In this document: in pieces, positions 4,686 to 37,918 of the stretch
Layout of the letters: the number at the start of each line of letters is the position of its first letter
Numbering within the stretch: position 1 is the stretch's first letter
DNA from: Dehalococcoidales bacterium
GTDB taxonomy: Bacteria > Chloroflexota > Dehalococcoidia > Dehalococcoidales > Fen-1064
Assembly (NCBI GenBank): GCA_020342155.1
Contig: CP070842.1
Location: 619,930 to 657,847, forward strand
Reading direction: 5' to 3'
DNA: 37,918 nt
Notes under the pieces: model-generated
Databases searched by the model: none
What the model was told of the DNA's origin: nothing
The model's input: only the letters and a program-made list of their open reading frames with translations
Program-made: the position numbers and the translations under genes

Positions 4686-5255
4686 TTGATTAACGAGGTA
4701 GAGATTAGAAAAGCAACGACTGCTATTATCGAGGCTATCGGTGAGAACCCCACACGAGAAGGCCTGGTTGATACACCGAGACGTGTCGCTGAGATGTACG
4801 TCGAGCTTTTTTCCGGACTCACTATGGACCCCACGGAAGAACTCAGCGTCGGATATGAGTTGGGACATCGGGAAATGGTCATCGTCAAGGACATTCCGTT
4901 CTATTCCATGTGCGAGCATCACCTCCTACCCTTTTTTGGGGTAGTGCACATCGGCTACGTCCCTGATGTAACCGGGCGGGTTGTCGGCATCAGCAAACTG
5001 GCCAGAGTTGTGGAGATTGTCGCTAGGCGACCCCAGATTCAGGAAAGGATGACAACGCAGATAGCCGATGCCATTGGCGAGGGGATCGGGCCACAGGGTG
5101 TTGCTGTGGTCGTCCGGGCCGAACATATGTGCATGGTAATGCGGGGTGTCAATAAACCGGGGAGCAACATTGTCACATCGGCTATCCGGGGTCTGTTCCG
5201 TCGCAGAGCAGCCAGCCGGGCTGAGTTTTTCTCACTAATACAAAATAATAAGTAA
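4686..5255 (+). CDS. folE: GTP cyclohydrolase I
   Basis: Makes 7,8-dihydroneopterin triphosphate from GTP, the first step of tetrahydrofolate synthesis. The protein has 189 residues, typical of FolE. The zinc and catalytic residues are visible: C76, H78 and H79 in [10 protein letters not shown], and C149 in [10 protein letters not shown]. The N-terminal helix [20 protein letters not shown] is also characteristic. The start is TTG at 4686, chosen because AAGGAGGG ends 5 bases upstream and no in-frame ATG precedes the conserved region. It lies just downstream of thrC. Confidence 0.96.
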
Positions 5256-17490: not shown

Positions 17491-18042
17491 TCAGGACACG
17501 CCGGTAGCTACTTTCTCGATAATAGCGACCTCATCAATACCATCGATTTCCGTTAGCCTGACCTTTATCTCCTCATGACGGGCACTGGGTACGTTCTTGC
17601 CCACGTAATCAGCTCGTATCGGTAGTTCCCGGTGACCGCGGTCCACAAGCACCGCCAGTTGAATTGCCCAGGGCCGGCCCAAGTCTATCAGAGCGTCCAT
17701 AGCGGCACGTATGCTACGTCCCGTGTAAAGCACATCGTCTACTAACACCAACGATTTACCTTCGATACTGACAGGGATATCAGTCCGCTGCACGGTGGGC
17801 TTCTCATCCAGATAAGATAAATCATCGCGATATGGACGGATATCGAGAGCGCCAACTGGTACATGCGGGCTACCGAACTCCTCCATGTTGTTGGCCAGCC
17901 TGTGGGCAAGCGGCACGCCACGAGTATACATCCCAACCAGTACTACTTGTTCCAGTGTCCTGTGGCGTTCAATGATTTCGTGAGCAATACGTGCCAGGGT
18001 CCGCTTGATGTCCCCCGAGGACATTATTACTTTACTTCTCAT
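17491..18042 (-). CDS. pyrR: Pyrimidine operon attenuation protein / uracil phosphoribosyltransferase
   Basis: RNA-binding regulator that senses UMP/UTP and promotes termination in pyr leader RNAs, with uracil phosphoribosyltransferase activity as a second function. The protein has 183 residues. The PRPP loop [13 protein letters not shown] is at 98-110, [16 protein letters not shown] is at 35-50, and DIRPYRDD is at 67-74. The start is ATG 18042, although the frame is open to 18114; the upstream part is the attenuator RNA itself. The only ribosome-site-like sequence, AAGGGG, is inside the 3' arm of the terminator hairpin. pyrB starts 35 bases downstream. Confidence 0.95.
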
Positions 18043-18043
18043 G

Positions 18044-18073
18044 AAAAAACCCCTTGCCCTGGCTGGCAAGAGG
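18044..18073 (-). terminator. PyrR-controlled intrinsic terminator (attenuator)
   Basis: On the minus strand, CCTCTTGCC (18065-18073) and GGCAAGGGG (18050-18058) form a 9-bp stem with one G-U pair and a 6-base loop, followed by six U's (18044-18049). It ends one base before the pyrR ATG. The 3' arm contains AAGGGG, the apparent ribosome site of pyrR, so the hairpin would block both elongation and initiation. Confidence 0.85.
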
Positions 18074-18099
18074 TTTCTGGTTGTACAACTCTTTACTTC

Positions 18100-18120
18100 C
18101 CTTACCAGCCTCACCGGACT
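18100..18120 (-). promoter_or_regulatory. PyrR-binding loop (anti-antiterminator)
   Basis: The minus-strand RNA here begins AGTCCGGTGAGGCT and ends GGTAAGG, matching the known PyrR-binding consensus AGUCCnGnGAGGCUnnnAAGG. Its 3' part GGTAAGGG can also pair with the terminator 5' arm CCTCTTGCC (8 bp with two wobbles). That pairing would be the antiterminator. PyrR binding would prevent it and so cause termination. Confidence 0.85.
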
Positions 18121-18138
18121 AGCTTAAAGGCTATACTA

Positions 18139-36305: not shown

Positions 36306-36382
36306 CGGGGTGTAGCGCAGCCAGGTAGCGCACCTGAATGGGGTTCAGGTGGTCGGCGGTTCAAATCCGCCCACCCCGACCA
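36306..36382 (+). tRNA. tRNA-Pro (anticodon GGG)
   Basis: A complete cloverleaf of 77 bases including an encoded CCA. The acceptor stem is CGGGGTG/CACCCCG, the D stem is GCGC/GCGC, the anticodon stem CCTGA/TCAGG encloses the loop ATGGGGT (anticodon GGG, codon CCC), and the T arm is GGCGG-TTCAAAT-CCGCC. Its anticodon loop and 3' half recur downstream at 37482-37513, and 13 bases recur at 36824-36836, which marks the gene as an integration site. Confidence 0.95.
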
Positions 36383-36391
36383 CAGGCCCAG

Positions 36392-36408
36392 GGTCCGACG
36401 GTCAGACC
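36392..36408. promoter_or_regulatory. Palindrome after tRNA-Pro
   Basis: GGTCCGAC and GTCAGACC flank a single G, forming a 17-bp dyad with one mismatch just after the tRNA. It could be a protein-binding site of the putative element, or a weak hairpin; there is no T-tract. Confidence 0.25.
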
Positions 36409-36449
36409 ACCTAAACTCTATGAGAAGTGTGAGTACTTGACTCTAATGG

Positions 36450-36602
36450 CTATCCTCTTTCAAATAGGAGATAATGCCTGATATCTGTTCCTAGACCTGT
36501 AGCTTGATAGGTGTGAAGATGCCAACCATCTATCAGGTGCTCTTGGATAACCTCAGCAATATTCTTATGATGGTTTACTTGAACACAAATGTATTCCTTC
36601 AT
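36450..36602 (-). CDS. Small DUF4177-like protein
   Basis: A 50-residue protein beginning MKEYICVQVNHHKNIAEVI and ending HYLLFERG, with EHLIDGWHLHTYQ in the middle. This arrangement (MKEYxxV, then a helix ending in GWxLhxxx, then YLxFER) is that of the short DUF4177 family, whose function is unknown. The start at ATG 36602 has AAGGAG about 11 bases upstream; the longer frame to 36635 places that site inside the gene. It is the only gene seen in the first segment of the tRNA-anchored array. Confidence 0.6.
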   Translation of the reverse strand: MKEYICVQVNHHKNIAEVIQEHLIDGWHLHTYQATGLGTDIRHYLLFERG

Positions 36603-36785
36603 AGTATTTATAACTCCTTCAATGATAAGTGCCATTAATGTACTTTAGTTTATCACGGGTATCATACATGTCAAAGTAGTGATTATAACAGTTTGATTGA
36701 AACATTATTGAGGTCTGAGAAGTTGAGTTTTTCGTTTGTAAAACAACGGTTGCCAGAACAGTAAGTCGAAGATATAATCAAAACT

Positions 36786-36836
36786 AAAGGAGGCAAGCGG
36801 CCTCCGCCTTTTCTACGGGCTACATGGGGTTCAGGT
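36786..36836 (+). repeat. Array repeat R1 (hairpin plus tRNA core)
   Basis: A 51-base repeat starting AAAGGAGGCAAGCGG and ending ATGGGGTTCAGGT. It is 49/51 identical to R2. It contains GGAGGC-AAGCG-GCCTCC, a 6-bp hairpin, followed by a T-run and then the 13 tRNA-derived bases. The open frame that starts at 36824 begins in this tRNA fragment, so that ATG is not the true start of the exported protein. Confidence 0.85.
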
Positions 36837-36880
36837 ATTACGGGCTGCATATAATATTAATACATAGCGGGAGTTACATT

Positions 36881-37390
36881 GTGATAGTTTTTAAGCTTGC
36901 GGCAGTAGTAATAGTATTGTCAGCAATTTCGACAGGCGGATTTGGTTGCGATGCATTCGAAGATATCAATTGTGAAGGTGGCAACTATATAAATGTGGCG
37001 ATTAGTGCTAGTATCAGCGCAGAGGTTTTTGATTTTGTATCAAACAAAGATGTTCCATGGCCCGGGATTCTCCTGCAAATAGAAATTACTAAGGACGGTG
37101 GTGAACTGGTTACATGCCGCGGAACCACCAATGAATATGGTGACGTACCAGAAACATGTCAGGGGACATTTAAAGTGTATAAAAATCAAGGGGTCAAAAT
37201 TACAGTTAGTCCGCTTGGTGACGTTTTACTGCCTGATAGTATGGGCGGAGGGCTCTGGGACCCAGGTTCTAACACGCTACAAAATTATAAACACTACTTG
37301 CGCTGGGATGAGCTTGAAGATTGCAGTTGGGGCGAAACTTACTTTTGGGACCCAACTATAAAAATCCAGACTTATGTTAACTTGCATTAA
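36881..37390 (+). CDS. Hypothetical exported protein
   Basis: A 169-residue protein not recognised as any family. The start is GTG 36881, preceded by GGGAG, giving an N-terminal signal-like segment (MIVFKLAAVVIVLSAIS) followed by TGGFGCDAFEDINC. The cysteine might be lipidated, but the lipobox is not canonical (GGFGC). The rest looks like a beta-rich extracellular domain with DVPWPGILLQIEITKDGGELVTCRG and TNEYGDVPETCQGTFKVYKNQ, reminiscent of Ig- or CNA-B-like folds with a cysteine pair. It is AT-rich and forms the cargo of the second array segment. The function is unknown. Confidence 0.6.
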   Translation: MIVFKLAAVVIVLSAISTGGFGCDAFEDINCEGGNYINVAISASISAEVFDFVSNKDVPWPGILLQIEITKDGGELVTCRGTTNEYGDVPETCQGTFKVYKNQGVKITVSPLGDVLLPDSMGGGLWDPGSNTLQNYKHYLRWDELEDCSWGETYFWDPTIKIQTYVNLH

Positions 37391-37443
37391 TCTATAGTCC
37401 AGCGATAGTAAATATAAATATATGTATATCCATCAAGATTAGG

Positions 37444-37513
37444 AAAGGAGGCAAGCGGTCTCCGCCTTTTCTACGTGCTACATGGGGTTCAGGTGGTCGG
37501 CGGTTCAAATCCG
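37444..37513 (+). repeat. Array repeat R2 with displaced tRNA 3' fragment
   Basis: The same 51 bases as R1 (two differences), followed by 19 further bases of the tRNA-Pro sequence. In total 32 consecutive bases (37482-37513) are identical to 36338-36369 of the tRNA. A 6-base insertion then precedes a last match CCGCCCACC. It cannot form a tRNA by itself. Confidence 0.88.
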
Positions 37514-37547
37514 TTACCGCCCACCATCGAGACTGGAGGAAAGTATA

Positions 37548-37918
37548 ATGAAAGCGGTTGTATATGAGAAATACGGACCACCGGAAGTTCTTCAGCTTAA
37601 AGAGGTAGAAAAACCTACTCCCAAGGACAATGAAGTACTAATAAGAATATATGCGACAACAGTAACGCCAGGGGACTGTAGAGTTCGAAGTTTCAAAGTC
37701 CCTCCCTTGTTCTGGCTCTCCGCGCGAATACAGTTTGGTCTCAGAAAACCAAAAAAAACTATACTAGGGAGTGACCTAGCCGGAGAAATTGAAGCAGTAG
37801 GCAAAGGTGTAAAACTATTTAGGAAAGGTGACCAGGTTTTTGCATCTACCGTTTTTATATTAGGTGCTTATGCCGAATACAGATGTCTGCCTGAAGAAGG
37901 GGCGGTGGCAATAAAACC
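37548..37918 (+). CDS. MDR-family NAD(P)-dependent oxidoreductase (3' end beyond window)
   Basis: The first 123 residues of a zinc-independent medium-chain dehydrogenase/quinone-oxidoreductase-like protein. [20 protein letters not shown], then [10 protein letters not shown], then [17 protein letters not shown] and [12 protein letters not shown] form the GroES-like N-terminal domain. The nucleotide-binding domain lies past the window edge. GGAGG is 8 bases before the ATG. It starts 34 bases after the last tRNA fragment, so it is either the first chromosomal gene beyond the array or further cargo. Confidence 0.88.

Follow-up and report, generated by a model that had tools for sequence, protein, structure and literature searches.

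How do short segments, each closed by the same hairpin and a fragment of a tRNA gene, come to lie in tandem behind a tRNA-Pro(GGG) gene in a Dehalococcoidales genome, in an array that encodes no tyrosine recombinase of its own? Arrays of single-gene cassettes have been described chiefly in integrons, and the Dehalococcoidia are hard to culture and mostly known from metagenomes. The anticodon loop, at which the segments of this locus are bounded, was reported by Williams in 2002 as a sublocation of tRNA integration.

Organisation of the tRNA-Pro(GGG) array

The window, i.e. the whole stretch of 37,918 nucleotides analysed here, carries an intact tRNA-Pro(GGG) gene at 36306-36382 (+ strand; ARAGORN; Rfam RF00005, 63.8 bits), which we take as the left anchor (attB/attL) of the array, upstream synteny with two relatives (G002 and G010) stopping at its 3′ end. 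The 13-mer ATGGGGTTCAGGT occurs on the + strand at 36338, 36824 and 37482 and nowhere else in the window, and its count in 100 dinucleotide shuffles was 0. In the tRNA gene, the heptamer ATGGGGT (36338-36344, +) forms the anticodon loop between the stem halves CACCTGA and TCAGGTG, while in the repeat copies the heptamer and right half are retained and GCTAC replaces the left one. These inverted half-sites, together with the comparison of filled and empty sites described below, point to the heptamer as a 7-bp overlap (crossover) region. Upstream of the two distal copies stands a 27-bp hairpin, hereafter H (AAAGGAGGCAAGCGGCCTCCGCCTTTT), at 36786-36812 without mismatch and at 37444-37470 with one mismatch (both +), against a chance expectation of 0; H and core together make up a 51-bp repeat (36786-36836 and 37444-37494) with 96% identity and a spacing of 658. 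The three direct 13-mers, the 51-bp repeat, the 32-base tRNA match at the distal end and the two segments of 486 and 658 bp between heptamers all lie where the first-pass annotation had placed them.

The first segment (cassette 1, 36338-36823, +, 486 bp) brings, at its left end, the 3′ half of the tRNA by which the tRNA gene is made complete, and this end resembles the left ends of a segment in another array of the same genome (segment D of locus L009) and in the relative G001. Its right end is the first H copy, followed at the junction with the second segment (36813-36836, +) by a spacer, a left half-site ending in GCTAC, ATGGGGT and TCAGGT, as in L009. Cassette 2 (36824-37481, +, 658 bp) has a left end without a tRNA 3′ half and is similar to L009 segment B; it encodes a 169-aa protein (36881-37390, +, GTG start) without Pfam match, possibly an exported lipoprotein given its hydrophobic start followed by GGFGC. 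The earlier proposal of one small gene per segment holds for cassette 2, whose protein has a homologue in L009, and is weak for cassette 1, where the sole candidate is a 61-aa ORF on the minus strand (36450-36635) without Pfam or NCBIfam match. The second H copy closes cassette 2, and is followed at 37471-37494 (+) by spacer, left half-site ending in GCTAC, heptamer and TCAGGT, which together form the attR.

The displaced tRNA 3′ half (37482-37526, +) starts with 32 consecutive bases of tRNA-Pro (37482-37513). It is not the plain tRNA-Pro remnant initially described, as the tail TTACCGCCCACCA agrees with how the tRNA-Val(CAC) of the same genome ends at its 3′ side. The fragment is chimeric, Pro-like through AATCCG and Val(CAC)-like at 37513-37526. 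A direct repeat of the 3′ part of the tRNA thus lies at the distal end of the array while the tRNA gene itself is intact, as expected of a tRNA-targeting element.

Elsewhere in the window, a PyrR binding site on the minus strand (18041-18134; RF00515, 55.1 bits for a cut-off of 54) precedes pyrimidine genes and represents an ordinary attenuator. The alcohol-dehydrogenase/quinone-reductase type gene starting at 37548 has at least five clustered paralogues at positions 1593103-1601217 of the same contig.

Further arrays in the same genome

BLAST searches of this genome (G000) recovered eleven site matches over several loci, with cassette-like spacings. In the array near 1.311-1.315 Mb (L009), five hairpin-core copies are spaced about 0.6-1.6 kb apart; one more stands alone at 2.197 Mb, decayed H copies occur at 1678.5-1679.2 kb, and a longer form of H with an extra GC stem is also present. 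Preceded by a glyoxalase-family gene before its first hairpin-core copy, L009 carries one gene per segment, encoding a Polyketide_cyc2-like protein, the homologue of the cassette 2 protein, a 343-aa protein of no family and a nitronate monooxygenase. Over their first 128 bp (H, core and left end), cassette 2 and segment B of L009 are 87.5% identical; the genes then diverge, their proteins retaining 47% identity. Like cassette 2, segments A-C of L009 have left ends without a tRNA 3′ half.

The assembly is scaffolded across 100-N gaps, one of which (657848-657947) abuts the last base of the window (37918). Such gaps lie near every array locus of this genome (1316723, 2197040 and 1677719), and another sits inside an integrase fragment at 77802, so that the assembly apparently breaks at these arrays. 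With each array locus near a scaffold gap, distances between arrays are not usable as evidence, and the view that L009 lies far from any tRNA gene was dropped as a firm one. Beyond the window, a stretch of about 250 bp (about 659.3-659.55 kb; L012, about 4800-5050) represents a high-copy dispersed repeat unrelated to H, of which this and related genomes contain partial copies by the dozen.

Segment turnover between relatives

Upstream of tRNA-Pro, the genome is collinear with G002 (78%) and G010 (70-74%) up to the 3′ end of the tRNA; downstream, all three carry unrelated segments. The array at L009 shows the same behaviour with respect to G001: the glyoxalase segment is common to both (87.8% identity) and ends at the core, the block behind the array is common as well (81% identity) and begins at H, and between these blocks lie four segments in the genome studied here and one in G001. 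The idea that the segments act as cassettes is largely borne out by this varied content at one tRNA-Pro locus, with homology breaking at the hairpin-core or at the tRNA end; the same two segments in all relatives would have spoken against it, and relatives do not share them.

A precise unit, present in one genome and absent from another, was found in a different family of the class. With flanks about 94% identical, G301 has a single H where G351 has two, separated by 962 bp that encode a 220-aa membrane protein between two exact ends. Taken alone, this difference could equally result from homologous loss or slippage between H copies of about 50 bp, which would look identical, and the H copies at this site are silent on which crossover occurred. 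A third genome (G383), with flanks 88-91% identical, reads CATGGGATACTAGG at this position, with no H and with a heptamer ATGGGAT that lies a few bases past what looks like the stop codon of a gene. This represents an empty site, at which homologous recombination between H copies could not explain the first insertion. In G301 and G351, element sequence gives way to chromosome at the heptamer, the right junction being CTAC-ATGGGGT-ACTA(A/G)G; no left junction is preserved from the first insertion there. As to the proposal that the hairpin-core unit is the recombination site, the core heptamer is thereby indicated as the point of exchange, with H flanking it. An empty-site search with the distal flank of the window was uninformative, as it met a paralogous gene family on contigs that end there, and neither an empty tRNA site nor a circular form or excision was observed.

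Distribution of the hairpin and its cores

A sequence model of the site, core included (R1), matched 28 of the 156 genomes of the order, plus genomes in other orders of the class Dehalococcoidia. Because this model contains the core, a core-free pattern of H alone was scanned against 84,980 GTDB species genomes, which yielded 18 exact matches on 17 contigs. These contigs are labelled Dehalococcoidia, Dehalococcoidales or Chloroflexi/Chloroflexota, with the exception of one labelled Deltaproteobacteria, whose sequence matches a genome (G069) placed in the order of the window. Exact H is followed by a tRNA 3′ half in 14 of 18 cases (E<1e-8), by the heptamer ATGGGGT in two and by a degenerate Val-like core in two. 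The tRNA types at these cores, as read from the anticodon loops, are mostly Pro-GGG, with Pro-TGG, Val-TAC and Val-CAC. As judged from these genomes, arrays of H with its core recur throughout the class and are no peculiarity of this locus.

The possibility of a dispersed repeat of REP or MITE type, raised at the outset as an objection to cassettes, is ruled out by the position of the H copies at tRNA-type cores (16 of 18 exact copies at a tRNA 3′ half or at the heptamer). A viral origin was likewise rejected: IMG/VR returned nothing with the H pattern, a relaxed H pattern or the integrase described below, and two matches to an 18-mer of the core, in coding sequence without H, are due to chance.

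An integrase family with the same ends

An integrase with the same ends, for which the first-pass annotation had proposed to search, was found in relatives and is absent from this genome. In G053, a 330-aa tyrosine recombinase (PF00589) lies behind the tRNA-Pro 3′ half, in an element that ends in H 5.5 kb further on. In the one-contig genome G080, a 62% identical enzyme directly behind tRNA-Pro belongs to a 16.5-kb element that ends in H and a tRNA 3′ half. These are the two integrase-bearing elements found to end in H; further close relatives of the enzyme share 57-75% identity. Members of this family (int053) lie directly behind tRNA-Pro(GGG) in G041, G080, G116 and G331 (truncated in G051), behind tRNA-Val(TAC) in G479 and, truncated, behind tRNA-Pro(TGG) in G351, thereby covering three of the four tRNA types that bear H. 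The enzymes score best with XerC/XerD/XerA models, all below cut-offs. In the gapped scaffold of the genome studied here, no close relative was found, the best match (28%) being of XerC/D type, and the genome's XerC/XerD are at best a conceivable driver. About 140 bp behind its tRNA-Lys(TTT), an N-terminal tyrosine recombinase piece cut by a scaffold gap (L246, 7800-8384, minus strand) has 34% identity to the linked integrase.

More distant relatives of the enzyme (34-46%) lie behind Gly, Lys, Ile, Met and other tRNAs. Among those at Lys, Gly, Ile and Met, the one right end found within 20 kb, that of a tRNA-Lys element in G064, has another hairpin in place of H, of A-stem-T type and similarly laid out. 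Hairpins other than H also occur in G053, where ATAGGCT...AGCCTAT takes the place of H directly before a tRNA-Pro 3′ half (L061, 12700-12860), apparently as the end of a neighbouring phage-like element. The one-contig genome G077, of the same order, has three equal-scoring copies of a related integrase gene (contig C1, 262093, 284451 and 831863), apparently a repeated element. Larger H-bounded elements (L064, L061, L093 and L062) carry defence-like cargo, namely a DNA methylase with a DndB/DpdB-like protein (G042), a NACHT protein (G053), a type IIG restriction-methylase (G080) and a TIR-like protein (G015).

A second link to this integrase family is found at the left ends. The motif ACCACCT[AG]A, with one mismatch allowed, lies at an offset of 34 or 35 behind the tRNA 3′ end in 9 of 35 tRNA-Pro 3′ ends (naive binomial probability about 1e-21, a value that ignores relatedness), and corresponds, as reverse complement, to the right half-site TCAGGTGGTC. 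At tRNA-Pro(TGG), the motif becomes GACCTCATGGT, the reverse complement of the right half-site of that tRNA, and behind tRNA-Val(TAC) it fits partially. These left-end motifs, including GACCACCTGA, may represent accessory integrase-binding sites. The window copy is exact (36406-36414), within a putative site GACCACCTAA (36405-36414, +) whose motif and spacing are as in G041, G051, G053 and others. In elements that carry the integrase, a second copy lies near +81, which is absent in cassettes without integrase; cassette 1 retains only the first of the two sites, at identical spacing. On this sequence evidence, the putative accessory sites connect cassette 1 with the integrase family even when H is disregarded. 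Lacking an integrase and carrying both end types of an autonomous element, cassette 1 has the structural features of a cis-mobilizable element, or hitcher, whereas cassette 2 shares the right end only.

Proposed mechanism and alternative explanations

We regard it as probable that the region consists of tandem cassettes without integrase on tRNA-Pro(GGG), which use the ends of a family of tRNA-targeting tyrosine-recombinase elements. The comparison of genomes shows conserved ends, a link to the integrase, varied content at orthologous sites, the presence or absence of one cassette and one empty site; circular intermediates, action in trans and the inclusion of H within the recognised attachment site would complete this scheme. 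The right end of each cassette comprises H, spacer and the half-site GCTAC before ATGGGGT, and the left end of cassette 1 is of the integrase-element type, with tRNA 3′ half and accessory site. An XerC/D-like tyrosine recombinase, supplied by larger elements of the same family such as those known from relatives, would bind the half-sites around the heptamer, with help from the accessory sites on the left and from the H side on the right. A circular cassette would then recombine, through its heptamer, with the heptamer of the tRNA anticodon loop or of an existing H-core site, strand exchange within the heptamer would insert the circle, and repeated events would stack cassettes in tandem. The tRNA would be restored when the left end brings a tRNA 3′ half, as in cassette 1, while cassettes devoid of it (cassette 2, L009 segments A-C) would fit only H-core or other heptamer sites.

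A bolder version is more tentative, and we hold it with less than even confidence: a non-integron cassette system of Dehalococcoidia, with a portable site made of H, GCTAC and heptamer, through which an Xer-like integrase from elsewhere would add single-gene circles in tandem to a tRNA anchor and to other heptamers, H taking part directly in site recognition, perhaps as a folded strand.

The array may instead be a scar, left where full-size integrase islands inserted serially at tRNA-Pro and lost their interiors, so that ends (H and core) and stray genes persist and the small segments were never mobile. We consider this unlikely for the array as a whole, even though integrase remnants of about 75-120 codons lie directly behind tRNA-Pro in G034, G051 and G116, this genome has no intact cognate integrase, cassette 1 has one of two accessory sites and only a weak ORF, and H copies have decayed at 1678.5-1679.2 kb. 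Deletions would seldom leave such uniform remnants, of 0.5-2 kb and one gene each, and many segments are compact, with one intact gene and an intact H at the end. Homologous single-gene cassettes with the same left end occur in two arrays (cassette 2 and L009 segment B), and the 962-bp unit of G351 has two exact ends. The cassette system is best read as a derivative of tRNA-targeting integrative elements, and decay is a live alternative for some of its segments.

More improbable still is that H would be a conserved transcription terminator only, with arrays changing by homologous recombination between repeats and no site-specific mobility. H does look like an intrinsic terminator, a GC hairpin followed by TTTT that folds as RNA, and the hairpin of the tRNA-Lys element in G064 has a similar layout. 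Among 48 distinct short-form H sequences, in which AAAGGAGGCAAGCGG is nearly invariant, two mutually exclusive foldings are possible, positions 4-9 with 15-20 (pairs in 89% of cells) and 3-9 with 21-27 (96%). Many substitutions in the inner 3′ arm (columns 16, 17 and 20) replace C by T, with G-U pairing retained on the + strand, which also speaks for a terminator. Pairing is conserved, although covariation showed no excess over shuffles, and covariation as proof of the structure was rejected, shuffles doing as well. What a terminator alone would not need is a 27-mer conserved across orders and several tRNA targets; exact H copies lie only at tRNA-type cores, and the empty heptamer of G383 has no H. 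This conservation across orders and targets suggests that H is recognised by a protein, and H may belong to the attachment site, act as a terminator, or do both.

An integron-type array with divergent attC sites (CALIN), evoked by single-gene cassettes, each closed by a hairpin-bearing site, and arrays without integrase, can be dismissed as a highly remote explanation, as GTTRRRY occurs in 1 of 57 sites and RYYYAAC in none, the linked integrase reaches 53-71 bits with the integron-integrase model TIGR02249 for a cut-off of 265, and the anchor is a tRNA gene.

Relation to known mobile elements

Closest by organism and by architecture are the tandem ssrA islands of Dehalococcoides, in the same class, which have direct repeats of the RNA gene between them. 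Of these islands, 15 have no integration module; they have been interpreted as possible cis-mobilizable elements and may move along with neighbouring islands (PMC3146451). Fragments of tRNA-Ala and other tRNAs occur at Dehalococcoides islands (PMC2764846). The ssrA islands rely on the serine recombinase DsiB/DsiA, target ssrA and consist of kilobase islands with rdhA and a 20-bp repeat (PMC3146451), whereas arrays of the window type are linked to an XerC/D-like tyrosine recombinase, sit at the anticodon loop of tRNA-Pro/Val and are made of 0.5-2 kb units with a right-end hairpin. The window array accordingly falls outside the ssrA islands, which are defined by a CcrB-like serine recombinase and the ssrA target, its target being tRNA-Pro and its linked enzyme a PF00589 protein.

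With integrons and CALIN (PMC11389934), the latter being the closest parallel in logic, the array shares mostly single-gene units, hairpin-bearing end sites and an absent recombinase that would be supplied in trans; unlike them, it has neither IntI nor attC consensus boxes, and a tRNA anchor replaces attI. With tRNA-targeting tyrosine-recombinase islands, IMEs and CIMEs (PMC5704250), it shares the direct repeat of the tRNA 3′ end, a tRNA-adjacent integrase (here in the same-ended elements of relatives), the restored tRNA and tandem accretion, and differs from them in its units of down to one gene, a 27-bp hairpin common to several tRNA targets, target-dependent accessory sites and insertion also at a heptamer outside tRNA genes. 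The array works like a CIME or a CALIN array, yet is not an integron.

Phage satellites are tRNA-linked, helper-dependent elements with tyrosine recombinases, and tycheposons are among them. Tycheposons are named with other phage satellites in PMC11389934. The cassettes examined here contain one or few cargo genes, among which no replication or packaging families were recognised, and no match was found in IMG/VR. Hairpin-ended cassette arrays anchored on a tRNA did not turn up for Dehalococcoidia in the literature searched, which mostly excluded subscription papers.

Accessory sites that follow the target, combined with a constant hairpin, provide a naturally occurring series in which to examine how tyrosine recombinases switch targets. 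If our reading is true, these arrays would represent a second route to cassette arrays, derived from tRNA-targeting integrases, and would show how such arrays can evolve; they would also account for some of the gene turnover that Dehalococcoidia show on a small scale.
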